Assembly: GCF_001046635.1 (NCBI RefSeq)
Contig: NZ_KQ130458.1
Location: forward strand, 53,144-117,143
DNA: 64,000 bases
Reading direction: 5' to 3'
From: Novosphingobium barchaimii LL02
Lineage (GTDB): Bacteria; Pseudomonadota; Alphaproteobacteria; Sphingomonadales; Sphingomonadaceae
The notes beneath the pieces are model-generated. The model ran no database searches, was not told the origin of the DNA, and saw nothing but the letters and a program-made list of their open reading frames with translations. Below, piece after piece: positions 14,985 through 44,243 of the stretch (positions are counted from its first letter, which is position 1; the number at the start of each line of letters is the position of its first letter). The position numbers and the translations under genes are program-made.

Positions 14985-15305
14985 ATGATCAATTTTGCCA
15001 AATTCGAGATCATCGGACGGATCGGTGAGATCGATGCCAAGCCCAAGGTCACCAACATCTCGGTATGCGCGAACTACCGCCGCCGCGGAGAAGGCGATCA
15101 GTGGATCGAGGATAGCTACTGGAACCGAGTCGTCATTTTCAGCGATGGTCAGCGTAAATATATCGATGAGAAGGCTCAGGTTGGCGATCTCGTGCGGATT
15201 GCCGGACGGCTCCGTGACACCTCCTATGAGCGCGACGGGACCACCCACTACACGACCGACCGGATCGTCGAAGAGTTCGGTGTGCTCGCGGCAAAGGCGG
15301 CATAA
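14985..15305 (+). CDS. ssb: Single-stranded DNA-binding protein (short form)
   Basis: A 106-residue OB-fold SSB. It shows INFAKFEIIGRIGEIDAKPK, VCANYRRRG, YWNRVVIFSDGQ, VGDLVRIAGRLRDTSYER and a final TTHYTTDRIVEEFG. It lacks the acidic C-terminal tail that recruits partners in housekeeping SSBs. The ATG follows GAGGAGG. It opens the + strand accessory block and would coat incoming single-stranded plasmid or assist replication. A second, full-length ssb lies at 31726. Confidence 0.85.
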   Translation: MINFAKFEIIGRIGEIDAKPKVTNISVCANYRRRGEGDQWIEDSYWNRVVIFSDGQRKYIDEKAQVGDLVRIAGRLRDTSYERDGTTHYTTDRIVEEFGVLAAKAA

Positions 15306-15385
15306 ATCTCAGGAGGCAGCGTCGATCGGCAAGAGGAGAGGGGGCATGCGCGGAGCGACCTTGGATTTCGACAGGAGTTTCGCCC

Positions 15386-16285
15386 ATGCCCGCCACCATC
15401 GATGCAGCAGTCCGCGCCAGACAAATCGTCGAGAGCTTGGGTGGACGCTGGTCAGGATCGCGCGGAGAGTGCCGCTGCCCCGCCCATAACGATCACTCGC
15501 CTAGCCTTTCGGTCCGCCTAGGCACCAAGGCGATCCTGTTCAAATGCTTTGCGGGATGCACATCGACCGATATCCTCAAGGCTCTGGATCGTCAGGGCTT
15601 GCACGACAGGCTGCCGGTCTATGTCGAACCACGCGCGCCGGCGCGCGATCTGAGCGGCTTGGCCAGGTCATTGTGGCAGCACAGCATCCCCATCGCCGGA
15701 ACACCGGCTGAAGCCTATCTTCATGCTCGGGGCCTTTACGCGCCAACGTCCGATCTTCGCTTCAACCCACAGACGATCATAGGGAAGGGCAAGGATCGGC
15801 GCAGCCTTCCCGCAATGATCGCCGCAGTGAGAAATGAGCTGGGCCTGGTCGCGGTCCATCGGACCTTTCTCGATCCCACAAACATTTTGCGGCGCCCCTT
15901 CCGCAAACCCAAGCTAGCTCTGGGTCTGCTCGGCTCGGGCAGCGTACGCTTTGGTGAGCCGGATGACGTTCTGGGCATTGCCGAGGGGATCGAAGATGCC
16001 TTGTCCGCCATCGACTGGTTCCAATTGCCGGTTTGGGCTGTGCTTGGTGCCGAGCGCTACGCCCATGTCGGCATACCGTCGCAGGTGAAGCGCGTCATCG
16101 TGTTCGGCCAGCGAAACAAGGCGGCGAAAATCTGCCTGAAGAGGGCAGGGGATCACCTCAGGGCCAACGGGCGAAGGGTCGAGGAATGGCTCCCATCCGA
16201 ACATGATGATTGGAACGATGCTCTGCGCGATCGGCTTGCCCGCAACGCCGTTCCTCGCCCCATGATCCAGCTCCACTCCCACTGA
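15386..16285 (+). CDS. Toprim-domain primase-like protein
   Basis: A 299-residue protein. The N-terminal zinc finger of the CHC2 kind is visible as ECRCPAHNDHSPSLSV with FKCFAGCT (about 28-57). A Toprim domain follows, with VLGIAEGIEDALSA (about 200), AVLGAERY and RVIVFGQRN. The order zinc finger then Toprim is that of plasmid and phage primases; no separate helicase domain is present, though the 1405-residue helicase is encoded next. AGGAG precedes the ATG. It probably makes primers on the transferred strand, which is inference. Confidence 0.82.
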   Translation: MPATIDAAVRARQIVESLGGRWSGSRGECRCPAHNDHSPSLSVRLGTKAILFKCFAGCTSTDILKALDRQGLHDRLPVYVEPRAPARDLSGLARSLWQHSIPIAGTPAEAYLHARGLYAPTSDLRFNPQTIIGKGKDRRSLPAMIAAVRNELGLVAVHRTFLDPTNILRRPFRKPKLALGLLGSGSVRFGEPDDVLGIAEGIEDALSAIDWFQLPVWAVLGAERYAHVGIPSQVKRVIVFGQRNKAAKICLKRAGDHLRANGRRVEEWLPSEHDDWNDALRDRLARNAVPRPMIQLHSH

Positions 16286-16343
16286 AGAGAGGAGAGGAAG
16301 CCTCCGGCTTGTTGCTCCGGTGATGGGCACCGGGCGATGCAAT
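16286..16343 (+). promoter_or_regulatory. Hairpin leader, copy 1 (before helicase gene)
   Basis: A purine-rich run GAAGAGAGGAGAGGAAGCC leads into the small stem AAGCC-TCC-GGCTT and then the stem CCGGTG-ATGGG-CACCGG. The same order, with different stem bases, recurs before the genes at 20696 and 23954. It ends next to the GGAGG ribosome site of the helicase gene. Confidence 0.5.
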
Positions 16344-16354
16344 GGAGGCTTACA

Positions 16355-19300
16355 ATGCGCACTTCAGCCGCTGCTCTCGAACTCGATTTCACCGAACCAT
16401 CCATTAACGCGGCGAAGGCGGTCCACGCCGTGTTGCGCAAGGGCAACGGCATCGACCGGCCTGGCCTGCTCCGGACGATGGAAACCGCCTATGGTTCAAC
16501 CGCGGCCGATGGGCATTGGTCACTCCGCGACGCCTATGATGTGCTTGAGCTGGCCCAGGTTCTGCACCTCGCCACGCTCGACCTGTCGCAAGAGCCGGCC
16601 GAGTGCCTTGCGGCCCTGACCGCGCTCACCGCATCCCTGCCGACGCATAGTGTGCGCAGCGAAGAACAGATCGCGCTCCAGCAATTTTCGACACCGGCCG
16701 CGATTGGCTATCTTGCCGCGCTCGCCGCTCGCATCACCGCCGCGGATACCGTCCTCGAGCCCTCCGCCGGCACCGGGCTCCTCGCCGTATTCGCCGCCCG
16801 CGTTGGCGCCAAGCTTGTCCTCAACGAGATCGATCCCGCGCGTGCCGTTATGCTCGAGGCAGCATTTCCCACCGCACCGGTCAGTCGCCACGATGGCGAA
16901 CTCATCCACGATCTGCTGCCGCTGTCGATCCGCCCGACCGCCGTGCTCATCAACCCGCCCTTTTCCCGCAGCATGGGCAGGCATGCCGACCCGCTTGCCG
17001 CGTTCCGTCATCTGCGCGCCGCTTTGAAGCGACTTGGTGCCGGGGGGCGCTGTACCGCGATCCTTCCCGATCGCGTGGACACATCAAGCCGCGCCTGGGC
17101 GAAGGCGACCGACGGTTTCGCGGTCACGCTCCACGTCGAGCTCCCCGCGAATGCCTATGCCAAACATGGCACCAGCCAGATCGTGAAACTGATCGTTCTG
17201 GAAAAGGGCTCCCAGGACGACGTCGCCCTCATCCGGTGCAGCTCGCTCGCCGAGGTGCTCGCGACGATCAGCACATCGGCCACCAGCCTTACGGCAACCC
17301 CGCGATGCTCGCCAGTGCGCCTTGCACCAACCCGTGCGCACGGATCCCTGCTCGGCGGTCTTTCGAGCAGGCCCCGGCTTTCGGCCCCGATCGCCAAGGC
17401 CGCCCCGTCTCTCGGCGCGCTTGATATCGGCTACGATGTCTTTGCCGAACCCGTACCGACCGGCGAGGCGGTCGGTGTCTATTTGCCGTACCGGCCGAGC
17501 CGCATCGCCATTCCCTGTGCATCCGCGCATCCGACCGCTCTGGTGGAATCGATCGCCATGGGCTCGATTACGGCACCGCGGCCCTCTTACATTCCCAAGC
17601 TGCCCACCCGCGTTGTCGCAGACCGGGTGCTGTCCGACGCTCAGCTCGAAACGCTGATCTATGCTGGTGACGCCTTCGAGCGAGACATTTCTGGCCTGTT
17701 CAAGGCGGCCGAGGAAGGATTGTCGCTCGCGCCCGACCAGGACGGCCGACCTTATCGGACCGGGTTTTTCCTTGGCGACGGCACGGGTGCCGGCAAGGGC
17801 CGTCAGGTTGCAGCCATCATCCTCGACCAGTGGCTGCGTGGGCGCCGCAAGCATATCTGGATATCCAAGACCGAGACGCTGCTTGAGGATGCACGTCGTG
17901 ACTGGACCGCGGTCGGCGGTCTCGCGCTCGACATCCAGCATCTGAATCAGTGGAAGCTCGGCACGCCGATCGGCGCGGCCGAGGGCGTGCTATTCCTCAC
18001 CTATGCGACGCTCCGCTCCAACCGCGGCGACAAGGGCACCCGTCTTCAGCAGATTCTCGACTGGGTCGGGGACGATTTCGACGGCATGATGGTGTTCGAC
18101 GAGGCGCACGAAATGGCGGGTGTCGCCGGCGGCGAAGGCCGTTTCGGCACCAAGGACGGCTCGGATCAAGGCATCGCCGGCGTGCGCCTGCAAAACCTGC
18201 TGCCTCGCGCCCGCGTCCTCTACGTGTCCGCAACCGGCGCGTCGGACGTCAACAATCTCGCTTATGCCACCCGGCTTGGCCTGTGGGGTCCGACCACCGC
18301 CTTCGCCGATCGCCGTGCCTTCGTCGACAGTTTGCGTCGTGGCGGGATCGCGGCAATGGAATTGATCGCCCGCGACCTGAAGATGCAGGGCCTCTATGTT
18401 GCCAGGGCGCTCAGTTTCGCCGGTGTCGAATATGACATCCTCGAACATCGTCTTACGCCCGACCAGATCGAGGTCTATGATGCCTATGCCGATGCGTGGG
18501 CGATTATCCATGCCAATTTGCGCACAGCGCTCGATGCCACCCGGGTGACGGACAGCTTCTCCAACGACACCTACAACAGCGGCGCGAAGGCCGCTGCACT
18601 GTCGATCTTTGAATCCACCAAGCAGCGTTTCTTCGGCCAGATTCTCATCGGCATGAAGCTGCCGTCGCTGATCCCGGCGATCCGTGCCGATCTGGCCCGG
18701 GGCGAGAGCGTCGTGATCCAGCTCGTCTCGACGTCCGAGGCGATGCTCAACCGGGCACTTGCCGCGCTGAATGCCGAGGACCGGGCGAGTCTCGACATCG
18801 AGCTCTCACCCAAAGAGTTCGTCATGTCCTATCTCACGGCGGCCTTTCCCGTCCGACAGATGAAGACCTTCGTCGATGACACTGGCAAGACCCGCTCCGA
18901 GCCGATGTCCGACGAGGAAGGCCGTCCCATCTTCAGCCAGGAAGCGATCGAGATGCGCGACAATCTCGTCGAGCGGTTCTGCTCCCTGCCGATCGTGGGG
19001 TCCGCCCTTGATCATATCATCGGGCATTTCGGGAGCGATGCGGTCGCCGAGGTTACGGGACGCAGCCGGCGCATCGTCGTCGACGCGCATGGTCGCCAGC
19101 GTATCGAGAGCCGTTCGCCGCGAACAAACCTCGCCGAGACCGACGCCTTCATGCGGAACGAGAAGAAGATCCTGATCTTCTCCGATGCAGGCGGCACGGG
19201 GCGCAGCTATCACGCGAGCCTCACCGCCGAGAACCAGTCACGCCGCAACCATTATCTGCTCGAGCCCGGTTGGCGCGCTGACGCGGCCATCCAGGGTCTC

Positions 19301-20572
19301 GGCCGCACCCACCGCACTCATCAGGCCACCGCGCCTCTGTTCCGCCCGGTATCGACCGACTGCCGCGGCGAGCGGCGCTTCATCTCGACGATCGCCCGCC
19401 GCCTCGACAGCCTCGGCGCCCTGACGCGGGGCCAGCGCCAGACGGGTGGCCAGGGTCTGTTCGACCCGCGGGACAATCTTGAAAGCGATTATGCCAAGGA
19501 ATCCCTCGAGACATGGTTCCGCCTTTTGGCCGACGGCAAGCTGCGCTCGACGACGCTCGATGAATTCCAGACCCTCACCGGACTTGAGCTGGAGGGCGAA
19601 GGCGGTGGGCTGAAGGAGGAGCTGCCGCCCATTCAGCGCTGGCTCAATCGTATTCTCGCACTGCGCATCGCGCTGCAGAATGCGATCTTCGATGAATATC
19701 TCGGTCTGATCGAGGCCCGGATCGAGGCGGCGCGCGAAGCGGGCACGCTCGATCTTGGTGTCGAGAGCATCAATGCCGAACGCATCACGATCCTTGATCG
19801 CACCGTGATCCGGCGCGATCAGACAAGCGGCGCAGAAACCGAGATCCTGCGCCTCGAAACGGAGGAGCGCTATAAGCCGCTCCCGCTCGATCGCGCGTTG
19901 CGGATCCTGGGCGATGACGCGCGCCCAATCGTCAATCGGAAGTCCGGCAGGGCCGCGATCCGGTGCAGCACCTATTCGCTCACCGACGACGATGGCGAGA
20001 TCGTTCGCCGCTACGAGCTGGTTCGGCCGACCCGTTCCGAGCGGATGCGGCAAGACTTGCTGCTCGAAACGATGTGGGAAGAGACCAGCGAGGAGGAATT
20101 TTCGGCGCTGTGGCAGGCCGAGGTAGAGGAGATGCGGGACAAGACCCGCACCAGCACGCTCTATTTGGTCGCGGGCCTGCTCCTGCCGGTCTGGGATCGC
20201 TTGCCCGACGATCATGTTCAAGTCTGGCGGCTGAACACCGATGACGGCCAGTCCTTCCTCGGCCGGATTGTCCCTGCACCGCTGGTGTCGAAGCTCGCGG
20301 ACGCCTTCGGGATCAATGCCGCCATCACCGTGTCAGGCGACGATACCGCAAAGCATGTGATGACGACCGGCGAGATATCGTCTGTCGGAGCCTATCGGCT
20401 CAAGCGCAGCCTGGTCGCGGGCCAGCAGCGCCTCGAACTGCTCGATTGGCCGCACACGCGGCTTGCTGAACTCAAGGCGGCCGGCTGTTTCACCGACATC
20501 ATCCAGCACAGGACGCGGATGTTCGTTCCGGTCGCGCATGCCGCTGCCGTCATCGAGCGCATCACCGCCTGA
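16355..20572 (+). CDS. Strawberry-notch-type helicase fused to DNA methylase domain
   Basis: A protein of 1405 residues. The N-terminal third is an adenine-methyltransferase-like domain with LEPSAGTGLLAVFAARVGAK and the catalytic INPPFSR (about 199-205). The central part is a superfamily 2 helicase with Walker A GDGTGAGKGRQVAA (about 474-487), Walker B FDEAHEMAG (about 581) and the strawberry-notch C-terminal signature DAAIQGLGRTHRTHQ (about 975-989). Start chosen at ATG 16355 because GGAGG lies six bases upstream; an ATG 18 bases earlier lacks one. Such proteins occur on plasmids and phages and probably modify and unwind incoming DNA as protection against host defence; that role is inference. 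Confidence 0.88.
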   Translation: MRTSAAALELDFTEPSINAAKAVHAVLRKGNGIDRPGLLRTMETAYGSTAADGHWSLRDAYDVLELAQVLHLATLDLSQEPAECLAALTALTASLPTHSVRSEEQIALQQFSTPAAIGYLAALAARITAADTVLEPSAGTGLLAVFAARVGAKLVLNEIDPARAVMLEAAFPTAPVSRHDGELIHDLLPLSIRPTAVLINPPFSRSMGRHADPLAAFRHLRAALKRLGAGGRCTAILPDRVDTSSRAWAKATDGFAVTLHVELPANAYAKHGTSQIVKLIVLEKGSQDDVALIRCSSLAEVLATISTSATSLTATPRCSPVRLAPTRAHGSLLGGLSSRPRLSAPIAKAAPSLGALDIGYDVFAEPVPTGEAVGVYLPYRPSRIAIPCASAHPTALVESIAMGSITAPRPSYIPKLPTRVVADRVLSDAQLETLIYAGDAFERDISGLFKAAEEGLSLAPDQDGRPYRTGFFLGDGTGAGKGRQVAAIILDQWLRGRRKHIWISKTETLLEDARRDWTAVGGLALDIQHLNQWKLGTPIGAAEGVLFLTYATLRSNRGDKGTRLQQILDWVGDDFDGMMVFDEAHEMAGVAGGEGRFGTKDGSDQGIAGVRLQNLLPRARVLYVSATGASDVNNLAYATRLGLWGPTTAFADRRAFVDSLRRGGIAAMELIARDLKMQGLYVARALSFAGVEYDILEHRLTPDQIEVYDAYADAWAIIHANLRTALDATRVTDSFSNDTYNSGAKAAALSIFESTKQRFFGQILIGMKLPSLIPAIRADLARGESVVIQLVSTSEAMLNRALAALNAEDRASLDIELSPKEFVMSYLTAAFPVRQMKTFVDDTGKTRSEPMSDEEGRPIFSQEAIEMRDNLVERFCSLPIVGSALDHIIGHFGSDAVAEVTGRSRRIVVDAHGRQRIESRSPRTNLAETDAFMRNEKKILIFSDAGGTGRSYHASLTAENQSRRNHYLLEPGWRADAAIQGLGRTHRTHQATAPLFRPVSTDCRGERRFISTIARRLDSLGALTRGQRQTGGQGLFDPRDNLESDYAKESLETWFRLLADGKLRSTTLDEFQTLTGLELEGEGGGLKEELPPIQRWLNRILALRIALQNAIFDEYLGLIEARIEAAREAGTLDLGVESINAERITILDRTVIRRDQTSGAETEILRLETEERYKPLPLDRALRILGDDARPIVNRKSGRAAIRCSTYSLTDDDGEIVRRYELVRPTRSERMRQDLLLETMWEETSEEEFSALWQAEVEEMRDKTRTSTLYLVAGLLLPVWDRLPDDHVQVWRLNTDDGQSFLGRIVPAPLVSKLADAFGINAAITVSGDDTAKHVMTTGEISSVGAYRLKRSLVAGQQRLELLDWPHTRLAELKAAGCFTDIIQHRTRMFVPVAHAAAVIERITA

Positions 20573-20600
20573 CCATCCAGGGCCTCTCTCCACGCTCAGT

Positions 20601-20660
20601 ACAGGAGAGGGGAGGGGGCCTTCGGCTTTGTGGGCCTGATGAGCAGGCTCGCGTGACCGT
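20601..20660 (+). promoter_or_regulatory. Hairpin leader, copy 2 (before ParB-like gene)
   Basis: ACAGGAGAGGGGAGGGGGCC is followed by the stem GGGCC-TTC-GGCTT and the stem GGCCTG-ATGAG-CAGGCT. It has the same order as copy 1, with the stem bases changed but pairing kept and the loop ATGRG shared. Confidence 0.5.
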
Positions 20661-20695
20661 CGAGGCGGTGCGCCAGTACCAGATGGAGACAACCG

Positions 20696-22759
20696 ATGAT
20701 CCAGTCCGTAAAGGTCAAGAACCTCTCGCTGTCGAAGGACAATGTCCGCAAATCCGGTCGTGAGGCCGGTATCGACGCTCTCGCCGCCAGCATCGCAACG
20801 CAAGGCTTGTTGCAGAACCTCATCGTTACCCCGCTCAAGAAGGCGGGCCATTTCACCGTCAAGGCGGGCGGGCGCCGGCTGCGCGCACTCCAGAGCCTGA
20901 TCGAACAGGGCACGCTGCCCGCCGACCATGTCGTGCCGGTCCTCGTCCTTACCGACGATGACAACTCGGTCGAGGCGAGCCTCACCGAGAACTTCCAGCG
21001 CGTTCCGATGAACCCGGCGGATGAAAGCACCGCGTTCAACTTCCTCATCCAGAAGGGGATGACCGCCGAGGACGTTGCCAAGCGCCAGGGCGTTACCACC
21101 CGCTTCGTCGAGCAGCGGGTGCGGCTTGCCGAGCTCGCGCCGTGCGTGTTCCAGGCTCTCGCCGCCGGCGAAATCACGCTGGGTGTCGCCCAGGCCTATG
21201 CCGTGACGAGCGACATCGATCGTCAGGCGCGCGTCTTCGCGCAGATGAGCACCTCCTATTACGGCGATCAGCCCGACAACATCCGGCGCGCGATCCTCAA
21301 CGGCACGATCAAGGCGAACGATGCCAAGGCGCGGTTCATCGGTCGCGATGCCTATGTCGCGGCAGGCGGCCGCATCGAGGGGGATCTCTTTGCAGCCGAG
21401 GGGGACGAGAACTGGATCGACGTCGATCTTCTCGAAGATCTTGCCGGCAAAAAGCTGGAGGCGGCCGCTGCCGAACTCGCACAGGCCGAGGGCCTCGCGT
21501 TCGTGACGCCGATCGCGGCCACGCACGTACCCTATGATCTCGAGCGTCAACTTCATGAGTTTCACGCACCCGCGCGGCCGCTCAGCGAGGAGGAGCGCGC
21601 GCGTGTCGAAGCGCTCTCGGCCGAAAATGACCAACTCGTCGAGCAGCTTGAGCGTGAACTGACCGACGGGACGCCGGAAGCCGAGGTCGCGAACGATCGC
21701 CTCGACGAGATCGAACGGGAGCTTGAGAGCATCGAGGATTCCCGTCGCGAGATCGATCCGGCGGTCCGGGCGCAGATCGGGACGTTCGTCTATATCGGTG
21801 GCGATGGCGAAGCCCGCGTTCACACCCGCATGTTCAGTGAGAAGCCCGTTGTCGATCCGAATGCTCCGCCCAAGGCGACGGGCGGTGCCAATGGTGAAGA
21901 CGGCGCCGGCGACATCGATCATGGACCCAAGCTCAGCGCTACGCTGATCGACGAGCTGGCGACCCAGCGCCGGCAGATCCTCGTCGCCCATATCGCCAGC
22001 GATCCGGCGATGGCGCTGGACCTCACCATCTTCCTGATGGCGCAGAATGTCGTCTTCGAGCAGAATTACGTCCGCAATCACTCGACGCTCAAGTCCGGCG
22101 GCGCGCAATTCCCGATCTTCGGCTTCCGCGACGAAGGGTCGATGGCGTCGCAGACCATCGAGGATCAGCGCCAGCGTCTCGATACGAGTTGGGCCGGTTA
22201 CAAGACCATGACCGAGCGTTTCGAAGCCTTTCGTGCGCTCGACGACGAGGCCCGCGGCAGTTGGGTGGCCTTCTCGATCGCACGCACGCTGGAACCGAGC
22301 CTGAACATCGCCGAGGGCGGACGGTCCAACGGGTTCCATGACCATCTTGGTCGCGCGCTCGACATTCAGGTCGAGCATTGGTGGCGCCCCACGGCCGAGA
22401 ACTTCTTCGGCCGCGTCAAAAAGGAGGTCATGCTCGCCGCGCTCGAGGACATTGGCGGGCCGATCCTGCGCGGGCGCTACAAGGACGCCAAGAAGGGCGA
22501 CCTTGCCGCAACCTGCGCTTCGCTCTGCAACGGGCAGGGGATCGTCGAGGCCGAAATCCGTGAAAAGGCGACGGCCTGGCTGCCTGATGCGATGCGCTTC
22601 GACGCCGTCGAGCAGCCCGAGACCATCGCGCTGCGCTCGACGTTCATCGACGAGGCCGATGATGTCGATCCCGGCGATGATGGTGATGATGTCGATGATG
22701 AGTCGGATCTGGAGGACGCGCCGCACGACGATCAGGAGGATTTGAGCGAGGCGGCCTGA
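20696..22759 (+). CDS. ParB-like DNA-binding protein, large
   Basis: A 687-residue member of the ParB/RepB/Spo0J superfamily, much longer than a partition ParB. The N-terminal ParB nuclease-like domain includes GIDALAASIATQGLLQNLIV, VKAGGRRLRALQSL and ASLTENFQRVPMN (the ENxxR box), followed by an HTH region AEDVAKRQGVTTRFVEQRVR. The middle has a charged coiled coil (about 290-350). The C-terminus is very acidic (DDGDDVDDESDLEDAPHDDQ), possibly a DNA mimic. It lies in the block with SSB, primase, helicase and ArdC and is not beside a ParA, so it is unlikely to be a segregation protein. Confidence 0.85.
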   Translation: MIQSVKVKNLSLSKDNVRKSGREAGIDALAASIATQGLLQNLIVTPLKKAGHFTVKAGGRRLRALQSLIEQGTLPADHVVPVLVLTDDDNSVEASLTENFQRVPMNPADESTAFNFLIQKGMTAEDVAKRQGVTTRFVEQRVRLAELAPCVFQALAAGEITLGVAQAYAVTSDIDRQARVFAQMSTSYYGDQPDNIRRAILNGTIKANDAKARFIGRDAYVAAGGRIEGDLFAAEGDENWIDVDLLEDLAGKKLEAAAAELAQAEGLAFVTPIAATHVPYDLERQLHEFHAPARPLSEEERARVEALSAENDQLVEQLERELTDGTPEAEVANDRLDEIERELESIEDSRREIDPAVRAQIGTFVYIGGDGEARVHTRMFSEKPVVDPNAPPKATGGANGEDGAGDIDHGPKLSATLIDELATQRRQILVAHIASDPAMALDLTIFLMAQNVVFEQNYVRNHSTLKSGGAQFPIFGFRDEGSMASQTIEDQRQRLDTSWAGYKTMTERFEAFRALDDEARGSWVAFSIARTLEPSLNIAEGGRSNGFHDHLGRALDIQVEHWWRPTAENFFGRVKKEVMLAALEDIGGPILRGRYKDAKKGDLAATCASLCNGQGIVEAEIREKATAWLPDAMRFDAVEQPETIALRSTFIDEADDVDPGDDGDDVDDESDLEDAPHDDQEDLSEAA

Positions 22760-22787
22760 CGCCCGTTTGCACGGTTCGAGGCGACTG

Positions 22788-22824
22788 GGGGCGGCACTCT
22801 TCGCGGAGTGTCGCCCCTCCTTTT
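22788..22824 (+). terminator. Rho-independent terminator after ParB-like gene
   Basis: GGGGCGGCACTC (22788-22799) pairs with GAGTGTCGCCCC (22806-22817) and is followed by TCCTTTT. It lies 28 bp after the stop of the ParB-like gene. Confidence 0.65.
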
Positions 22825-22891
22825 GTGCCCCGGCGGCAGGCTCTCTGAGGGGAGGGTGCTGGTCCGGGATCGCCTCTACGAGATCAGGAGA

Positions 22892-23821
22892 ATGACCGTG
22901 GTAAAGACCACCGATAAACCGTCGCCTGCCGACACTATCACCAACGCGATCATCAACAAACTCGAAGCGGGCGTACGCCCTTGGGTGAAACCATGGCGGC
23001 CGGGCCTTGGCGGCCGTCCTCTTCGCGCGACCGGCGACCCGTATAAGGGCATCAATTGCTTCTGGCTGTGGCTCTGCGCCGAAGGCGCCGGCTACCATTC
23101 TCGCACCTGGATGACCTATAAGCAGGCGCAGGCGCTGGGCGGCCAGGTCCGCGAAGGCGAGCGGTCGCAAATCGCCATTTTCTACAAATCCTACAGCAAG
23201 ACGGTGGAGTCGCCCGTCACCGGCGACCCCACGGACGAAATGCGACGCGTGCTGCGATCCTACGCCGTCTTCAATGCCGATCAGATCGAAGGGCTGCCGG
23301 AGAAATTTTATCCAAGCCCCCTCAGCGTGGTCGCCCCCGACGACGAACTGCCGGATCGCGCAGAGCGCTTCCTCGATGCCCTTCCGGCGAGGGTTTTCCA
23401 GTGCGGCGATCGGGCCTTCTATGACCGTGTTGCCGACAGCATCACGATGCCGCCCGTCGCGTTGTTTTCCACCCGTGCCTATTTCGCGTCGACGTTAGCG
23501 CATGAGGCAGGGCATTGGACCGGTCATCCTGACCGGCTCAACCGAGAGTTCGGCAGGAAATTCGGCGACAACGCTTATGCTTTCGAAGAGCTTTGCGCCG
23601 AGATGACATCCGCCCTGCTCGGCGCGGATCTTGGCCTCCCGACCGCCCATATCGACGATCATGCAGCGTATATCGGCTCGTGGCTCGCGGTGCTGCGCAA
23701 GGATTCCCGCGCCATCATGACGGCTGCAGCAAAAGCCGAAGCGGCCGCCGCTTTCCTGCTCCGCGCAACGGGCCTCGCCACATCGGACGACGCCCAGGAT
23801 CCGATCCGTGAAGCAGCATGA
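22892..23821 (+). CDS. ardC: ArdC-like antirestriction protein
   Basis: A 309-residue ArdC family protein. The N-terminal ssDNA-binding domain has TITNAIINKLEAGVRPWVKP, GINCFWLWL, SRTWMTYKQAQALGG and the aromatic/basic YKSYSK. The C-terminal zincin-like metallopeptidase domain has LAHEAGHWTGHPDRLNREFG, in which HEAGH (about 204-208) is the zinc motif. ArdC proteins travel with plasmid DNA and protect it from restriction in the recipient. Start chosen at ATG 22892 behind AGGAG; a longer frame to 22808 would run through a terminator. Confidence 0.92.
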   Translation: MTVVKTTDKPSPADTITNAIINKLEAGVRPWVKPWRPGLGGRPLRATGDPYKGINCFWLWLCAEGAGYHSRTWMTYKQAQALGGQVREGERSQIAIFYKSYSKTVESPVTGDPTDEMRRVLRSYAVFNADQIEGLPEKFYPSPLSVVAPDDELPDRAERFLDALPARVFQCGDRAFYDRVADSITMPPVALFSTRAYFASTLAHEAGHWTGHPDRLNREFGRKFGDNAYAFEELCAEMTSALLGADLGLPTAHIDDHAAYIGSWLAVLRKDSRAIMTAAAKAEAAAAFLLRATGLATSDDAQDPIREAA

Positions 23822-23887
23822 TCGCGGCGATCGGCCGCCCAGACCCCGGCGGCTACCGCCGGTTCGCCGTACCGTTCAGCCGCGGCA

Positions 23888-23935
23888 AGGACAGGGGAGG
23901 GGAGGACGCCTTCGGCCTTTTGAGCGCGCCAGAGC
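23888..23935 (+). promoter_or_regulatory. Hairpin leader, copy 3
   Basis: ACAGGGGAGGGGAGGACGCC leads to a GCC-TTC-GGC stem and then GAGCGC-GCCAGA-GCGCTC. It is the same arrangement as the leaders at 16286 and 20601 and ends at the GGAGG of the next gene. Confidence 0.5.
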
Positions 23936-23953
23936 GCTCAGAAGGAGGCTCCC

Positions 23954-24589
23954 ATGCTCTACGATACGCTCTACCGCCACAATCAGGCCCTTTCCCTCGC
24001 CGGTCTGGACCATCTGCCGGCGGCGCTCCACGCCCTCAACGCCGCCGTCGACGATTGTCAGCGTGCCGGCAAGCCTGTCGCCGGCGACGCGGCAATCCTT
24101 CTTCTCATCCGCCATCTGGCGGACATTGCCGAACGCGACACGCCCAGCGTCAACGCCCTTCGCCTCCGTTGCGAAGCGGATCGCCTGGCGGTTGCCGCCG
24201 CGCCGGCGCTGCTCGACATCGCCGGGAAGAGCGTCGGCGGAAACTACCACGCCAAACGTACCTTCCACTATCAGGCGCGCCGCGCGCTTGCACGTCTCGC
24301 GACGGCGATCGGTCTCGATGCGGACGACGTCCGTATCAACACCGTCATGGGTGCCGATCACGAAGACGGCACGACGGAGCTGCGCCACGCGGATCTCGCC
24401 GTTCGCGTGGTTCCACGGGGCTTCCTCCCCGACAGCGAAGTGTCGATCAGCCGCTGTCGCGATGGGCAGGCGGTTGGCAGGCCTTACTGCGCGCCGATTG
24501 CCGAGTTGCTCGACGTGGCCGCGTTCCGCCGCCGGCTTGCCGGCACGCCCGACGAGATCGGCGCTGTGTGCCTCGCCGCTGCGGCCTGA
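23954..24589 (+). CDS. Hypothetical plasmid protein
   Basis: A 211-residue soluble protein, mostly helical in the first 120 residues (LPAALHALNAAVDDCQRAGK, DAAILLLIRHLADIAERD). It has no catalytic motif I recognise. It starts at an ATG with GGAGG six bases upstream, behind leader copy 3. Codon use and spacing match its neighbours. Function unknown. Confidence 0.75.
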   Translation: MLYDTLYRHNQALSLAGLDHLPAALHALNAAVDDCQRAGKPVAGDAAILLLIRHLADIAERDTPSVNALRLRCEADRLAVAAAPALLDIAGKSVGGNYHAKRTFHYQARRALARLATAIGLDADDVRINTVMGADHEDGTTELRHADLAVRVVPRGFLPDSEVSISRCRDGQAVGRPYCAPIAELLDVAAFRRRLAGTPDEIGAVCLAAAA

Positions 24590-24613
24590 ACCCCGTAATG
24601 CAGGAGACCTTTC

Positions 24614-24860
24614 ATGGGTTGGCTCTTCATGCGCGATAAGGATGGCTACGCCACGCCGCGCTCCTATCTCGACAACCAGTTCACCTATGCGCACGCGGAT
24701 CATCGTCTCACGGTTCTCGCGTCTTCGATGGTCGGTTCGACCTATTATGCCGCGTGCGAACGGATCGAGGCGTCCGGCGCTCGGGCCGTCTTCGCCGTCG
24801 TGTGCCTGACCAGGCAAAGCACCGGCGCGCGCGATGGCTGCACGTTCGGCTACAAAGATA
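24614..24860 (+). CDS. 5' exon of an intron-split plasmid gene
   Basis: The first 82 codons plus one base of a small soluble protein (MGWLFMRDKDGYATPRSYLD... ending FGYKD). The gene is interrupted at 24860 by a group II intron. Joined to 27415 it reads GYKD-M-TEAMGPCES without a shift, giving a 203-residue protein. I recall DUF6927-like plasmid proteins with this junction but have not checked. Without splicing the frame ends four codons into the intron region with unrelated residues. Function unknown. Confidence 0.75.
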
Positions 24861-25471
24861 GTGCGCCGTTGCGGCGCTGAAATGGAGTATCAGTGATGAT
24901 GAGGTAAGTTGAGAATGCCTCTGCTCGCCGGACTAACCTCGGACCTCACAAGGTCTGAAATCCCGAAAGGGACGGGGAACAATAGCATGTTCGGAAAAGG
25001 CCGGATGCGTCTCAGTCGCAAATCGAGACGATGACGGTCAGGGCAAGGTGCGTATGGTGAAGGCTATACTGCTTAAATCCCAGTCTGCAGCAATCTATAT
25101 AGCGATACTGGCGAAAGCGACTGTCACGCCAGGTCCGGATGTTGACAGCGGTCTCATGTCTTGGCCGCCTGTTTCTCAGCCCATCCGGTGCGCCTCTCGT
25201 CGAGGGGTTTAGTGGACGAACGGGACACCTAACCGCGCCGCATCTCCATTCAGCGTAACTACGGGATGCCCTAAACAGGCGGCTTCTGCCGGCCTGCATG
25301 GGTACGGAGCCGCCATATTACTCAAACGCCCGGGGTAATGCCCGGGACATCGACCTCTTCGGAGGCGGCGGTGCAACCGTATAAGGTCTTGAGCGATCAG
25401 GCCGAAAGCGGGGAAGACCGGGGGAAGGGCGGCAGCTGTGATTCTTCAACCACCGATCATGGGGTGTGCTG

Positions 25472-27385
25472 ATGCTGCCAGAAACTGTGAAAGGCCGGTT
25501 GGAGGCCATTCCGACGCTCGTTGCGTCGGGCAAACGGGTGAATGGGCTCTATCGTCTGATGGGGTCTCGCCTCCTTTGGGAGGACGGCCTCCAAAAGATC
25601 GCATCCAACAAGGGTGCGATGACGCCGGGTATCGACGGCGAGACTTTCGTGGACTTTGGACCGGAAGACCTCGACCCGATTATCGCCAGCGTGATGGCAG
25701 GGACCTACGATCCCAAACCAGTGCGTCGGGTGTTTATCCCGAAAGGCAAGGGCAAACGGCGTCCGCTGGGGATTCCCACGCGTGATGACCGCCTCGTTCA
25801 GGAAGTGGCGCGGCAACTGCTCGAACGGATCTATGAGCCGGTGTTCTCGAACGCCTCCCATGGATTCCGGCCGGGCCGGTCGTGTCATACGGCGCTTGAA
25901 CATGTCAAAGCCGTATGGACGGGGGTGAAATGGCTCGTAGATGTGGATGTCGCAGGGTTCTTCGAGAACATCGACCATGACATTCTCCTGCGGCTGCTGC
26001 GGAAACGGATCGATGACGAGAAATTCATCGGCCTGATCGGCAGCATGCTTAAGGCGGGCGTTATGGAAGACCGGGTTCACACCCGGACCTACAGCGGCAC
26101 TCCGCAGGGCGGTATCGTCTCTCCAATCCTGGCCAACATCTATCTCCATGAACTCGATATGTTCATGGCGGAACGGATGGCGGCTTTCGAGAGGGGGAAG
26201 GTCCGTGCCACGAACCCGGAATATGGGCGACTGGCTGGGCGCATCCAGAAACAACGGAAGCGCGTCACTATGCTGCGGGCTAAAGAGAACGTCGACGAGG
26301 TGAAGGTTGCGGCCGCCTTGGCCAAAATCCAAACCTTACTGCCGCAAAAGCGGTCCATCCCGTCGGGAGATGCGATGGACCCCGGTTATCGCCGACTTCG
26401 TTACTGTCGCTACGCGGACGACTTCATGATTGGGGTTATCGGTAGCAAGGAGGATGCACGAAGCGTGTTCGCCGAAGTCAGGGCATTCCTGACAGAAGCA
26501 TTGGCGCTAACGGTGTCCGAGGAGAAAAGCGGTATCCGCAAGGCGAGCGATGGGGCCGCCTTCCTTGGATATGAAGTCCGCACATATACGACACGTCAGC
26601 GGGTGGTTCGGAGCCGAAAGGGCTCCGTCAGCTTCCTCCGCAGGCCGCCGTCGGAAGTGATGCAGCTGCATGTCCCTTGGGAGAAGGTCCACGCGTTTGC
26701 CTCGGCGAAGGGCTATGGTGATCTGTCGGTCTTGAAGCCGCGTCATCGTAGCCTGCTGCTCAGCTGCAGCGACGTTGAGATTGTCCTTGCTTACAACGCC
26801 GAATTGCGGGGTTTTGCGAACTATTACGCTCTCGCCAAGGATGTGAGCTTCAAGCTGAACAGGCTTGAGTTCCTCCAGCGGTGGAGCTTGTTCAAGACCT
26901 TGGCCAGCAAGCACAAGACCAATGTGCGAGCGGTCGTGGCCCGCATGAGGACGGGGCAGGAATTTACCATCGGCTACGACGTCGATGGCCAGCCCCGATC
27001 GGTCAAAGTCTGGAAACTGGCTCATCTGAAACGTGATCCGGCCACCTCGTCCAGGATTGATATCCAGCCTTGGACGCAGGTGTTCACACACTCACGTACG
27101 GACTGGGTTGAACGTCAAAATGCCAAGCAATGCGAGGCTTGCGGTCGATCCGATATTCCGTGTCAGGTGCACCATATCCGGGGGATGGCCGATGTTTCGC
27201 ACCGCGGCTTTGTCGTGAGAATGAAGGCGGCCCGCGCGCGCAGGACGGTAGTCCTGTGCGAGCAGTGCCACCGGGACACTCATGCTGGCCGATTGCCCGA
27301 TCAGCGCGAAGGAATGGTAGGTCACAGTGGAGAGCCGCATGCAGTGAAAGCTGCACGTGCGGTTCGGCGGGGGGATCAGGGCTGA
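25472..27385 (+). CDS. ltrA: Group II intron reverse transcriptase/maturase with HNH
   Basis: A 637-residue intron-encoded protein. It has the N-terminal RT0 region, fingers-palm motifs (VRRVFIPKGKGKRRPLGIPT, SHGFRPGRSCHTALEHVK, GTPQGGIVSPILANIYLHEL) and the catalytic RYADDFM (about 312-318). The maturase X region is around 450-520. The C-terminal HNH endonuclease shows CEACGRSD, VHHIRGMAD and VLCEQCHRDTHAG. All domains needed for splicing and retrohoming look intact. The start is ATG 25472 or GTG 25466. Confidence 0.92.
   Translation: MLPETVKGRLEAIPTLVASGKRVNGLYRLMGSRLLWEDGLQKIASNKGAMTPGIDGETFVDFGPEDLDPIIASVMAGTYDPKPVRRVFIPKGKGKRRPLGIPTRDDRLVQEVARQLLERIYEPVFSNASHGFRPGRSCHTALEHVKAVWTGVKWLVDVDVAGFFENIDHDILLRLLRKRIDDEKFIGLIGSMLKAGVMEDRVHTRTYSGTPQGGIVSPILANIYLHELDMFMAERMAAFERGKVRATNPEYGRLAGRIQKQRKRVTMLRAKENVDEVKVAAALAKIQTLLPQKRSIPSGDAMDPGYRRLRYCRYADDFMIGVIGSKEDARSVFAEVRAFLTEALALTVSEEKSGIRKASDGAAFLGYEVRTYTTRQRVVRSRKGSVSFLRRPPSEVMQLHVPWEKVHAFASAKGYGDLSVLKPRHRSLLLSCSDVEIVLAYNAELRGFANYYALAKDVSFKLNRLEFLQRWSLFKTLASKHKTNVRAVVARMRTGQEFTIGYDVDGQPRSVKVWKLAHLKRDPATSSRIDIQPWTQVFTHSRTDWVERQNAKQCEACGRSDIPCQVHHIRGMADVSHRGFVVRMKAARARRTVVLCEQCHRDTHAGRLPDQREGMVGHSGEPHAVKAARAVRRGDQG
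27332..27365 (+). ncRNA. Group II intron 1 domain V
   Basis: A 34-nt hairpin starting GAGCCGCATGCAG, with a GAAA tetraloop, and ending GTGCGGTTC. This is the catalytic core of group II introns. It follows the end of the HNH domain coding sequence. Confidence 0.9.
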
Positions 27386-27414
27386 CTCCATGAGCAGCAC
27401 CAATCCTACCCGAC

Positions 27415-27779
27415 TGACGGAAGCGATGGGACCGTGCGAAAGCGACTGCCCCGCTGCAATTCTCGATGAATTGACCGAAACCGACAGCACCTACGCCTCC
27501 GAATGGCGCGCACGCTGTCGTGCCAACCTGGTTCGCCGCAAGCTCGAACGCGCGAAGCCGGCCCCGAAGCCGGGACAGACCATCGTCTTCGACGAGCCCA
27601 TTCGTTTCAATGACGGCGAAGATCGCGACCGCTTCACGGTCATTGCCAATCCGAAGGGCAAGGCACCGCTCTTTCGCGATCCCACAACCGGCACTGTGTG
27701 CCGGATCACAAAGCTCAAGACGCGCGCATACCGGCTTATCAACCCGACCATCGTCCCGAAGGACGCGACCGATGGTTGA
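27415..27779 (+). CDS. 3' exon of the intron-split plasmid gene
   Basis: Completes the gene begun at 24614. The first two bases finish an ATG codon, then TEAMGPCESDCPAAILDELT and a basic C-terminal part (FTVIANPKGKAPLFRDPTTG). The two exons total 612 nt, an exact multiple of three. The stop overlaps the start of the next gene by eight bases, so splicing may be needed for normal coupling to downstream translation. Confidence 0.75.
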
Positions 27780-28695
27780 GCGCGCGCCAGTGATCGCGGC
27801 CTGGGGCGCGGGCGTCGATTCCACCGCCATGATCATCGAGCTCGTCGAACGAGGCGAGCCGATCGATATGGTGTTGTTCGCCGATACCGGATCCGAGAAG
27901 ACCGATACCTATGCGTTCATTCCGGTCTTTCGTCATTGGATGGACCGTCACGATGTTGCGTCCGAGATAGTCCGCTACGAACCGCGAAACTTCAAGCATT
28001 GGCCGCCCTATGATAGCTTGGGCACCAACATGCTGACCAACGCCACCCTGCCGTCCAAGGCATTTGGGCGGGGGTCGTGCTCGCTCAAATGGAAGGTGGC
28101 GCCGCAGGACAAATGGACGGCCCAATGGGCGCCCGCGATACGGTGCTGGGGAGAAGGCGGACGTGTCGTCAAACTGATCGGCTATGACTGTTCCGGTGCC
28201 GATCAGCGACGCTACGCGCATGCCGAGGGATATGCTGACCCTCGCTATGACTATCGGTATCCCCTTCGCGAACTGGGCTGGACCCGGGCGGATTGCGTTG
28301 CACGTATTGAGCGTGCGGGCCTCCCTGTACCGCCTAAATCCTCATGTTTTTTCTGTCCCGCCATGCGGCCACACGAGGTGGATGCGCTCTCCAAGGATGA
28401 ACTTCGCACCATCGTTCTGATGGAGGCCCGCGCAAAACCGCGCTTGCGCACGATCGAGGGCCTCTGGCGCAAGCCCGTTGTCGGGCGCGGCGGGGCGATA
28501 CCGAGACCGGGCAATATCACCGCCTATGTCCGTGCGCTCGGCCTTCTGCCACCGAGCGAGGTTGATCGGATCGTTGCGGATGCACCGCTCGCGCTGGTCG
28601 CTTTCCAGGCGGCGCAAGCGCGCAAACCCGTCGAGCAGCGCATGTCGATGGCGCGTTGGCTCGACGCATTCCACCGGGGTCAGTCCGCAGGCTGA
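27772..28695 (+). CDS. PAPS-reductase-like ATP pyrophosphatase
   Basis: A 307-residue protein of the PP-loop (adenine nucleotide alpha hydrolase) superfamily. The PP-loop is degenerate as WGAGVDSTAM (about 10-19), followed by VLFADTGSEKTDTYAFIPVF. Further motifs are GSCSLKWKVAPQ, KLIGYDCSGADQRR and a cysteine pair SSCFFCPAMRP that may bind a metal or Fe-S cluster. Relatives include PAPS reductase and the DndC-like enzymes; no dnd genes are near. It overlaps the preceding exon, so it is part of the same transcript. Substrate unknown. Confidence 0.75.
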   Translation: MVERAPVIAAWGAGVDSTAMIIELVERGEPIDMVLFADTGSEKTDTYAFIPVFRHWMDRHDVASEIVRYEPRNFKHWPPYDSLGTNMLTNATLPSKAFGRGSCSLKWKVAPQDKWTAQWAPAIRCWGEGGRVVKLIGYDCSGADQRRYAHAEGYADPRYDYRYPLRELGWTRADCVARIERAGLPVPPKSSCFFCPAMRPHEVDALSKDELRTIVLMEARAKPRLRTIEGLWRKPVVGRGGAIPRPGNITAYVRALGLLPPSEVDRIVADAPLALVAFQAAQARKPVEQRMSMARWLDAFHRGQSAG

Positions 28696-28721
28696 CCCCC
28701 TCCCTAGCTATGGAGACTCTC

Positions 28722-29168
28722 ATGGCCGATCGCGCTTCTGTCGCGATCCGCATCGGCGGATCGCTGTCCCCTGACCTCCTTCCCGGCTTCTGCGCTGCCG
28801 TCGCGAGCGACGGCGCCTATACGGACTGGGAGGGCACCGCGTTCGATCCGGACGCTCTCGATACGAGCGTTCCCCTGTACCTGGCCGACCATGAGGTTGC
28901 CTGGGGCCGGTTCGAGGCGATCGAGACTTTCTGTGTCGATCATGCCCTTGTCTTCGCGCGCTGGGCTGGCGGCGCTCCTGGGGCGTTTGGCCCGGAGCGG
29001 GTGGTCTTTGACGGCATGACCGTTCGCAGTTTCAGCGCGTCGGACGATGACCAGATCCTGATCTCGGCGGAAACGGTGCGCGGTCTCGGCAGCTTCGCGG
29101 CGGTGCTGTCGCATCTCGCAGCGGCGGAATTGGAGATACCCCCATTCCGGATCGACGGCAGGGTCTGA
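28722..29168 (+). CDS. Hypothetical plasmid protein
   Basis: A 148-residue soluble acidic protein with no recognised motif (IRIGGSLSPDLLPGFCAAVA at the start). ATG 28722 is chosen because GGAG lies six bases upstream; another ATG is four codons earlier. It follows the PAPS-reductase-like gene by 26 bp and probably belongs to the same operon. Confidence 0.65.
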   Translation: MADRASVAIRIGGSLSPDLLPGFCAAVASDGAYTDWEGTAFDPDALDTSVPLYLADHEVAWGRFEAIETFCVDHALVFARWAGGAPGAFGPERVVFDGMTVRSFSASDDDQILISAETVRGLGSFAAVLSHLAAAELEIPPFRIDGRV

Positions 29169-29259
29169 GGGCAAAGCGAAACCGGTCTGTGTCGACACCT
29201 TCCCCGCCAGAGGATGCCGCATATGGGCGCCCGCGAGGCGCTGGCAACCCGCGAACGGC

Positions 29260-29303
29260 GGGCCGAGTTGCCGTGTGCCACGGCTGCCCGCACCACCCCT
29301 TGT
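29260..29303 (+). repeat. 44-bp leader repeat, copy 1
   Basis: Begins GGGCCGAGTTGCCGTG and ends CACCACCCCTTGT. The segment is identical to 31567-31610. It contains the hairpin GCCGTG-TGC-CACGGC. It lies 110 bp before the SLOG-protein start. Confidence 0.75.
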
Positions 29304-29412
29304 TCGCGAGTTCCCCTCGGCTGTGCCTCGGTGCCAGCCCCTCTTTTGCGAGCGCCCGGAGGATGCGCATCCGGCGGAGAGGCCGCCGGCACAGACAGAA
29401 AGGCTCGCTATC

Positions 29413-30360
29413 ATGTCCACATCGCTTGCAGCCGCACTCGCGGCACTGGAGCTAGGGCACCTCGAACCCCGCGCTGAAGACCTGAGTGGCATGGCGCCGC
29501 CACCAACCGAGGCGCTGGAGCAGACCGCCACCGCAATCTGGAGCGATCTCTTCACGACGATGGGAAACACCGCGCTGGAGCGCGACATCGAAGACCTGGG
29601 CTGGGGCCTGGTGAACCTCTTCCACCGCGCCGCCGCCAAGAAACACGGACTGGTCGATCGATTGACCGACGACATCCGCCTTCTCCTCGCCGAACAGGAC
29701 GGCTCCGAAATCAGCACGGCCAATCTGGAGGAGAAGATCGATCTTGCCAAGAAGGTCGAGGAATCCGCTGGTGCCTTCGAGATCATGCGCGATGTCGCCG
29801 CCGCGCACTATATCCGCGAGACCGGGAGATCGTGGGTGCCATCGTCCGGCAACCGCATTTCGCTCGGCGTCACCGCCGGGATCGTCGATGGCCATGCCTT
29901 CCTGCGAGCGCGCCGCGAGCGGGCTCTGAACGCAAACACCGCGCAGGGTACGCCCGTTGTGTTCGCCGGTGGCCGCCTCACCTTCGCCAACGACGAAGAT
30001 ATGAAGACGTTCGCCGATAATCTGCTGGCCACCCTCAACAAGGTTCGCGCCCATGTCGGCGACATGTATCTCGTACACGGCGGCGATATGAAGGGTATCG
30101 AGCGGCTTGCAGCGTCTTGGGCCGAGCAGAATGGCATCCAGCAGGTGCGGTTCGGTCTCGATCGCAAACTCGGAGACCGCGCCGGCTTCCGTCGCAACGA
30201 GCAGATGCTCTCGCTCAAGCCGCGGTTCGTTATCGCCTTCCAGGGCAACGGCGTGACGGAGCGGCTTGTCATCGAAGCCAAGGCTCGGGGACTCCGTGTC
30301 GTTGATCGTCGCGGCCCGTTGGGAAGCCCTCCTTCCGCTGCCCGTCGCGCTGCGGGCTGA
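29413..30360 (+). CDS. DUF2493 (SLOG/YspA-like) domain protein
   Basis: A 315-residue protein. The N-terminal 170 residues are helical and charged. The C-terminal part is a SLOG-type Rossmann domain: VVFAGGRLTFANDEDMKTFA, MYLVHGGDMKGIERLAASWA, QVRFGLDRKLGDRAGFRRNE and FVIAFQGNGVTERLVIEA. Such domains are predicted to bind nucleotides or ADP-ribose derivatives and occur often on mobile elements. It has the 44-bp leader and is followed by a strong terminator. Function is not established. Confidence 0.8.
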   Translation: MSTSLAAALAALELGHLEPRAEDLSGMAPPPTEALEQTATAIWSDLFTTMGNTALERDIEDLGWGLVNLFHRAAAKKHGLVDRLTDDIRLLLAEQDGSEISTANLEEKIDLAKKVEESAGAFEIMRDVAAAHYIRETGRSWVPSSGNRISLGVTAGIVDGHAFLRARRERALNANTAQGTPVVFAGGRLTFANDEDMKTFADNLLATLNKVRAHVGDMYLVHGGDMKGIERLAASWAEQNGIQQVRFGLDRKLGDRAGFRRNEQMLSLKPRFVIAFQGNGVTERLVIEAKARGLRVVDRRGPLGSPPSAARRAAG

Positions 30361-30366
30361 AGCCGC

Positions 30367-30397
30367 GGGCCGCCGGTTTTCCGGCGGCCCCCTTTTC
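30367..30397 (+). terminator. Rho-independent terminator
   Basis: GGGCCGCCGG and CCGGCGGCCC pair around a TTTT loop and are followed by CCTTTT. It sits 7 bp after the DUF2493 gene. Confidence 0.85.
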
Positions 30398-30430
30398 GCT
30401 GCGCTTAACGTCCTCCCCTGGAAATTCCCG

Positions 30431-30480
30431 CAGGCGAGAGGAGGGGAGGGCGCCGAGGCCCTTTTTGGTGTCGCTGAATA
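30431..30480 (+). promoter_or_regulatory. Hairpin leader, copy 4 (weaker)
   Basis: CGAGAGGAGGGGAGGGCGCC followed by a short GCC/GGC stem and a T-run resembles the leaders at 16286, 20601 and 23888. The second stem is less clear. It precedes the gene at 30591 by about 110 bp. Confidence 0.4.
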
Positions 30481-39904: not shown

Positions 39905-40027
39905 GCGGGGAGGGCGGCTCCGGCTGCGCCGGACCGGGCTCTAGGCGAAACGCCCCGAGCCCCGTGCCGGGTCTCGGTAGGGTAGACGCGAGACGCCTCT
40001 TTCGAGGACGCCCCAGCGCCTCCCCCC

Positions 40028-40061
40028 GAACCGTGCTTGCACCTTTCAATGCACACGGCTC
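40028..40061 (-). ncRNA. Group II intron 2 domain V
   Basis: A 34-nt hairpin beginning GAGCCGTGTGCATT, with a GAAA loop, and ending AGCACGGTTC, read on the minus strand. It directly overlaps the end of the intron protein gene. Confidence 0.9.
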
Positions 40062-44108: not shown

Positions 44109-44243
44109 CGCCGGTGCCGTCTGACGCCCACCGGGTCTTGCTCCCCGGCACGAGAGGAGAGGCTGCGCGGCGAGAGCGGCCGCGTTTCGCTGCGCGGTGA
44201 GGGGACCGACCGGTTTCCCTGGAACATGCCAAGGAGACCCGCC

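Follow-up and report, generated by a model that had tools for sequence, protein, structure and literature searches.

What the recurring hairpin leader in front of several genes of one plasmid block is, and what it might do there, is the question raised by a stretch of 64,000 nucleotides from Novosphingobium barchaimii LL02 (contig NZ_KQ130458.1, positions 53,144 to 117,143 of the forward strand; hereafter the window). The window is part of a sphingomonad-type plasmid, and from 15 kb its plus strand carries an establishment block in the order ssb, toprim primase, Strawberry-notch-like helicase (SNO), large ParB-like protein, ardC and a 211-amino-acid protein of unknown function (YP), the same order as on plasmid pBAR4 (complete, 112 kb). 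The initial annotation had placed leaders with a purine-rich run, a small GCC-TYC-GGC stem and a variable second stem before genes of this block. These leaders constitute a real, uncatalogued and conserved RNA leader family of sphingomonad establishment genes, and their mechanism is, judging from predicted folds and pairing energies, probably translational.

From 5′ to 3′, the leader consists of a purine run, the GCC-UYC-GGC stem (P1), a longer hairpin (P2) and a Shine-Dalgarno sequence (SD). The window contains the following three leaders.

16286..16354, plus strand: leader 1, before the SNO gene; run 16286-16299 (GAGAGGAGAGGAA), P1 16300-16308 (GCCTCCGGC), P2 arms 16317-16322 and 16328-16333 (CCGGTG-ATGGG-CACCGG), SD 16344-16348 (GGAGG), ATG at 16355
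20603..20695, plus strand: leader 2, before the large ParB-like gene; run 20603-20617 (AGGAGAGGGGAGGGG), P1 20618-20626 (GCCTTCGGC), P2 arms 20632-20638 and 20644-20650 (GGGCCTG-ATGAG-CAGGCTC), possible third hairpin 20656-20669 (by inspection), weak SD 20685-20688
23893..23953, plus strand: leader 3, before the YP gene; run 23893-23906 (AGGGGAGGGGAGGA), P1 23908-23916 (GCCTTCGGC), P2 arms 23917-23927 and 23934-23945 (GAGCGC-GCCAGA-GCGCTC), SD 23942-23948 (AAGGAGG), partly within P2

All three were present at the places claimed for them, before the SNO, large ParB-like and YP genes of the block, and their joint pattern was far above chance. The run with the small stem matched exactly at 16290, 20608 and 23898, and the pattern AGGRGAGGRNGCCTYCGGC with up to three mismatches gave six matches in the window against 0.75 expected, a number reached by 0 of 100 shuffles; the matches without mismatch were leaders 1 to 3 only. 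Leader 1 starts directly 3′ of the toprim stop codon and is thus intercistronic, and leader 3 lies about 70 nt downstream of ardC. A leader peptide starting in the ATGRG loop (e.g. ATG AGC AGG CTC GCG TGA in leader 2) was considered and rejected: it is not conserved, and by inspection several ParB leaders have no start there.

The stability of P2 was measured on the 32 nt following P1 against dinucleotide shuffles in 36 non-redundant leaders, using a script set up with the listed P1 variants. At p < 0.05, 24 of the 36 exceeded their shuffles in stability (7/15 ParB, 9/12 YP and 8/9 SNO leaders); the leaders of a family being related, these do not amount to 36 independent tests. The value of p was 0.01, 0.006 and 0.002 for leaders 1, 2 and 3, respectively. 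A covariance model, R1, was built from ten ParB leaders, because P2 was displaced by two columns when the gene families were aligned together with MAFFT, and was run over 95 of 209 sources. R1 matched YP leaders with E values from 3e-8 to 2e-2 and SNO leaders with E values from 2e-7 to 4e-2; leader 1 (31.2 bits, E 4.8e-5) and leader 3 (E 2.3e-6) were outside the training set, and leader 2 is a member of it. In the alignment of model matches (A10, 97 distinct rows), which is fitted to R1 and includes weak matches with E up to 1, 93.1% of cells pair, double-sided changes occur in 13 of 13 pairs, 0 of 500 shuffles reach any of five measures, and sliding the partner by 1-3 columns lowers pairing to 23-63%. 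In the unfitted alignment of the ParB family the covariation score exceeded all 500 shuffles, and the number of doubly changed pairs was reached by 10 of 500. RNAalifold recovered no P2 from a mixed SNO set. The claim that pairing is kept while bases change, as in a selected RNA structure, is thereby upheld in larger alignments, with the YP family taken alone as the unconvincing case (see below).

P1 was fixed by the pattern in the loci of the exact scan, and its variation was therefore read from loci obtained by other routes, from protein-anchored inspection and from matches of the model. Variants that keep pairing were GGC/GCC (L080, L019), AGCCC/GGGCU (L166 and others) and GGGC/GCCC (L135, L143) in ParB leaders, UCC/GGA before a fifth small gene (L052) and GAGC/GCUC before a gene reading like ArdC (L153). 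The small stem of the initial annotation is accordingly present and has a few compensatory variants, but it is mostly conserved as sequence and thermodynamically marginal.

Over the paired columns of three MAFFT alignments, 734 cells were Watson-Crick, 111 G.U, 14 A.C and 77 other, and the two type I alignments alone had 78 G.U to 4 A.C. Since G.U exceeds A.C, the coding-strand (RNA) structure appears to be the one under selection; in a hairpin formed by the opposite strand, A.C would be expected to outnumber G.U. This result bears on a role at the DNA level, as a repressor operator or as a hairpin of the incoming single strand (single-stranded DNA promoter or priming site). The Frpo-type single-stranded DNA promoter is a hairpin of the transferred strand; here the G.U bias favours the coding strand, which may or may not be the transferred one. 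The genes do resemble establishment genes, and a likeness exists to EGeRS1 of pLS20-family plasmids, conserved regions rich in inverted repeats that are repeated before establishment operons including ardC, with secondary structure predicted for single-stranded DNA or RNA and a mechanism reported as unknown (PMC8708921). EGeRS1 regions are, however, 400-600 bp long and belong to Bacillus plasmids, whereas the leaders here are about 55-95 nt long, occur in Sphingomonadales and end at the SD of single genes. A DNA-level role is very unlikely, because G.U is tolerated and A.C avoided, so that the complementary strand is not selected, and because stems of 6-11 bp stand at the SD and the sequence of P2 changes freely, unlike that of an operator.

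An exact-pattern scan of genome contigs across the whole database returned at least 120 stretches, mostly named as Sphingomonadales. A pattern akin to it, with TYC, a spacing of 0-4 and three purines ahead of the core, was applied to the matches listed together with the window, L001-L004 and L125, and yielded 109 distinct sequences. Among these matches, 94 precede an SNO (23 + 12, two lineages being counted apart), ParB (33) or YP (26) gene, L109 being excluded from the 94 as it was assigned to YP by a short motif; of the other 15, L108 stands before the fifth small gene and 14 resemble chance matches in other bacterial groups. This fifth gene (about 100 codons, M-H/R-S-[IV]-A-V-Y-L) has the same leader at L108:6243-6613, L077:6308-6678 and L052:2858-3229 (minus strand). 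One viral contig had the exact pattern, and a few pattern matches occurred in records of Mesorhizobium, Devosia, Hyphomonadaceae and 'Arthrobacter', which we suspect to be mis-binned or contaminating plasmid contigs.

Because the pattern scan selects for the motif, a motif-independent sample of 80 loci was fetched via the SNO protein alone, which was found in 118 of 396 genomes of the order. After removal of near-copies, a purine run was counted in these loci before 29/61 SNO (shuffled mean 3.1), 20/36 ParB (2.3), 17/58 toprim (0.9) and 6/35 ardC (0.6) genes. The count before YP (2/7 vs 0.7 in shuffles) was not above chance, and no run stood before DUF2493 (0/29) or ssb (0/4) genes. The run together with the small stem preceded 7 SNO, 8 ParB and 1 YP genes. 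These counts indicate that what is general is the run, the two-hairpin form being one leader lineage, and the expected near-constant position before the same genes was encountered in many Sphingomonadales. Members beyond that order were looked for and rejected: R1 matched at E ≤ 0.01 in 10 of 385 genomes of the class and 6 of 299 of the phylum, with about 3.9 and 3.0 expected by chance; by tblastn, with stricter filters that lose weak matches, no block gene was found at these loci except in G001 (both sets) and G036 (phylum set). The ParB leader region was matched by 40 plasmid records, among them well-studied degradation plasmids.

On pBAR4 the run pattern occurs 8 times against 10.6 in shuffles, that is, with no excess. 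Seven of the eight runs are on the plus (coding) strand, intergenic and 42-141 nt before a start; six of the seven precede block genes and one precedes a small gene upstream of a second parAB and mob genes, and the eighth run lies within a minus-strand gene. The block run at 141 nt is the counterpart of a fourth leader of the window that was rejected (see below). By this pattern, no transfer or metal-resistance operon of pBAR4 has a run. The absence of an excess, and the ease with which GC-rich DNA folds, could suggest that the leaders arose by chance, or else by recent copying of one DNA segment. Among three plasmids, the leaders of the same gene on different plasmids are 62-82% identical and those of different genes on one plasmid 57-69%, ranges that overlap; given these identities, recent duplication, which the initial annotation had named as an objection, is unlikely. 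Position, covariation and orthology likewise speak against chance or copying, and we regard this explanation as already refuted by the covariation, the identity comparison and the SNO-anchored counts, and as scarcely credible.

The genes of the block, the solitary runs among them and the flanking plasmid genes are arranged as follows.

11.7-14.3 kb, minus strand: Rep3-type initiator and ParA
14985..15305, plus strand: ssb, first gene of the block, with no run and no leader (by inspection)
15331..15344, plus strand: solitary purine run ahead of the toprim gene, which starts at 15386
15386..16285, plus strand: toprim (DnaG-like primase) gene (Toprim_3, DUF7146)
16355..20572, plus strand: SNO, Strawberry-notch-like helicase gene (AAA_34, Helicase_C_4)
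20696..22759, plus strand: large ParB-like gene (ParB_N, HTH_ParB)
22847..22856, plus strand: solitary purine run between a terminator-like hairpin (22787-22818) and ardC
22898..23821 (start about 22892/22898), plus strand: ardC / zincin-like metallopeptidase gene (ArdcN, MPTase-PolyVal)
23954..24589, plus strand: YP gene
45-48 kb: ParB/KorB protein, mobilisation protein and relaxase

YP matched no Pfam or NCBIfam family and no PDB sequence better than E 0.36. Several of the gene kinds in the block have been discussed among 'polyvalent' counter-defence and entry proteins (PMC5512222). Strong terminator-like hairpins lie at 22787-22818, between the ParB-like gene and ardC, and at 30367-30390, and the block would therefore form more than one transcript unless they are read through. 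A group II intron (window 24614-27391; reverse transcriptase/maturase open reading frame 25466-27385, domain V match 27330-27391) appears to split the gene after YP, and the minus strand holds a second group II domain V (39977-40063).

Further purine runs had been annotated near 15332, 22850, 39903 and 44150; runs were confirmed at 15331, 22847 and 44152, and that at 39903 is weak (CGGGGAGGGCGG). The run at 44152-44165 (pBAR4 counterpart at 52497) has no two-hairpin form; the small gene that follows it lies in turn upstream of the second parAB and mob genes. The weaker fourth leader annotated at 30431 found no support and was excluded from the family: its E value with the family model was 0.78, it folds as GGGGAGGGC..GCCCTTTTT, the hairpin at 30367-30390 precedes it, and the next gene starts only some 140-155 nt further on.

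As to function, the median energy of pairing with the anti-SD was −11.7 (ParB), −10.6 (YP) and −11.4 (SNO) kcal/mol for the run and −6.6, −11.7 and −9.3 kcal/mol, respectively, for the true SD. The median predicted probability that the true SD is unpaired was 0.08 in SNO (n = 9), 0.04 in YP (n = 12) and 0.24 in ParB (n = 14) leaders vs 0.48 in 37 other pBAR4 genes (Mann-Whitney p = 0.0017, 1.7e-5 and 1.4e-4, respectively), the controls being those 37 of 74 listed genes of this single plasmid that have a recognisable SD. The place where a start codon would be expected behind the run is occupied by P1, and by inspection no conserved start codon is found there. Pairing of the GCCUUC of P1 with the SD, which excludes P1, was predicted with a probability of at least 0.4 in 6/9 SNO and 6/12 YP leaders.

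From the strength of the run towards the anti-SD, the closure of the SD and the GCCUUC-SD pairing we infer a standby site, a masked SD and possibly two competing states in SNO and YP leaders. Our tentative preference, held with considerable doubt, is that the leader is a cis-acting translation-initiation element that marks an establishment regulon. Each leader would control, in cis, translation initiation of one establishment gene; the purine run would act as an orphan SD, or 30S standby site, by pairing with the anti-SD of 16S rRNA, and the true SD, in or beside the P1/P2 fold, would be largely masked. A 30S subunit would first land on the run and, once the fold opens, move on to the start codon, and in SNO and YP leaders P1 and the pairing of GCCUUC with the true SD may represent two alternative states, between which some signal might switch. 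As the same leader stands on several genes of one block, these genes are proposed to form a post-transcriptional regulon. A precedent exists in genes 38 and 25 of phage T4, which have split ribosome-binding sites with an SD-like sequence far upstream of the start and RNA structure in between, gene 25 being at an intercistronic junction (PMC3014915). The leaders here differ in having a second, proximal and masked SD, in recurring before several genes and in a spacing test no better than shuffles.

Several results weigh against such a translation-initiation element. The geometry of a split ribosome-binding site was that of shuffles, an effective spacing of 5-13 nt being found in 5/9 SNO, 8/12 YP and 10/14 ParB leaders vs 5.9, 8.1 and 9.1 expected. 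The median unpaired probability predicted for the run itself was 0.35 (ParB), 0.40 (YP) and 0.25 (SNO), which speaks against a freely open standby site, and the runs of the ParB leaders L135 and L143 bind the anti-SD weakly (−5.9 and −4.5). P1 reached a predicted probability of at least 0.3 in 5 of 35 leaders only, and the GCCUUC-SD pairing was predicted in 0/14 ParB leaders. In the YP family alone, the covariation score was reached by 37 of 500 shuffles and the number of doubly changed pairs by 147 of 500, and the structure slid by one column scored higher (0.138 vs 0.117), so that YP by itself shows no convincing covariation.

The strong anti-SD binding of most runs would also suit an mRNA stabiliser, in which the run binds 30S subunits in the manner of STAB-SD and polypurine stabilisers and, together with the hairpins, protects each cistron after cleavage of the transcript between genes. 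As in STAB-SD, an anti-SD-complementary purine tract is found in the leaders, with two ParB leaders as weak exceptions, and several intercistronic gaps have their run at the stop codon of the preceding gene or just 3′ of it. The mycobacterial furA-katG transcript is cleaved between its genes and stabilised by a polypurine sequence, likewise an anti-SD-complementary tract in a leader or intercistronic region (PMC2358910); the katG tract, however, lies 4 bp from the start codon, whereas the run here is some 40-95 nt away and followed by covarying hairpins. Stabilisation would leave unexplained the masking of the SD, the ending of P2 at the SD in YP and SNO leaders, and the restriction of runs on pBAR4, by the pattern used, to the block and one small gene near parAB, and we consider it rather unlikely.

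The occurrence of one leader type across several gene families of one element, with another type on SNO genes of other lineages, could alternatively point to a trans-acting factor, such as an element-encoded RNA-binding protein or a small RNA with a C/U-rich loop, that binds the run or hairpins and switches the whole set together. Of four plasmids with gene tables read, three encode YP, a protein of unknown function, in the block. By the run pattern used on pBAR4, and setting aside antisense to the run sites, a near-perfect complementary tract occurs only within parB, no candidate factor was found, and little sequence would be left for recognition, because the bases of P2 and the loops vary widely. 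Control by such a factor is rather unlikely as well.

The supposition that the element was undescribed holds with respect to Rfam 15, in which no family matches the leaders. The only gathering-level matches in the window were the two group II introns, a search with leader 1 by itself yielded nothing beyond eukaryotic chance matches far below the cut-off, and in seven related loci the single match was an unrelated fluoride riboswitch. The radC RNA motif (RF01754) is a leader RNA of mobile-element and anti-restriction genes and resembles the present leaders in this respect. As their identity it found no support: it had no match in the window or in any of eight genomes or records, of which seven had been chosen because they carry the block or leader, and 14 control genomes also gave none. 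No publication on this leader was found in the open literature, most subscription papers lying outside it.

SNO genes about 43-49% identical to that of the window, in Sphingomonadales (among L182-L200) and other Alphaproteobacteria, often have another leader (type II); in the class, SNO was found in 25 of 372 genomes, one of them the near relative G001. The type II leader consists of a purine run followed by a long irregular stem, GGGAC-GGG..GAGCCG....CGGCUC.CCC..UCCC, and its apical GAGAGCG lies opposite a CGCUCUC just before the SD, a possible pseudoknot (among L182-L200 and L226-L254). In an alignment of 19 of the 20 sequences found (L199 omitted), 87.9% of cells pair, double-sided changes occur in 11 of 23 pairs, and no shuffle reaches the covariation score; the pseudoknot helix hardly varies and is partly fixed by the search pattern. 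Rfam gave nothing better than E 0.76 on nine type II loci. That one gene family has leaders of different types suggests that control is useful and its form replaceable. A further leader form, with a GGGGGCGAGGCCCCC hairpin, was observed before ParB-like genes of other elements (L177, L178, L180 and L203).

A more specific possibility, which we regard as highly improbable, is that plasmid entry is sensed at the RNA level by the leaders. SSB and ArdC, the single-stranded-DNA-binding proteins of the element, would bind and close the leaders when free, incoming single-stranded DNA would titrate them so that all the establishment genes are translated, and translation would be shut off once the plasmid is double-stranded. 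A likeness, to be compared with the type II SNO leader too, is the autogenous pseudoknot leader of T4 gene 32, a structured leader upstream of the ribosome-binding site of a DNA-transaction gene (PMC3014915). It differs in that the ssb gene of the block is itself without a leader, and binding of SSB to the present leaders is hypothetical. If true, the entry sensor would be a multi-gene counterpart of gp32 autoregulation in T4, and the pseudoknotted SNO leader of other Alphaproteobacteria would do the same job in a second way.

The wider question is how the counter-defence and establishment genes of conjugative elements are turned on fast, and for a short time, in the recipient; for some pLS20-type plasmids a cis region has been identified, with a mechanism reported as unknown (PMC8708921). 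A compact RNA element before several genes of one block makes this question testable with simple reporters, and the leader is a sequence tag with which further establishment genes may be found.

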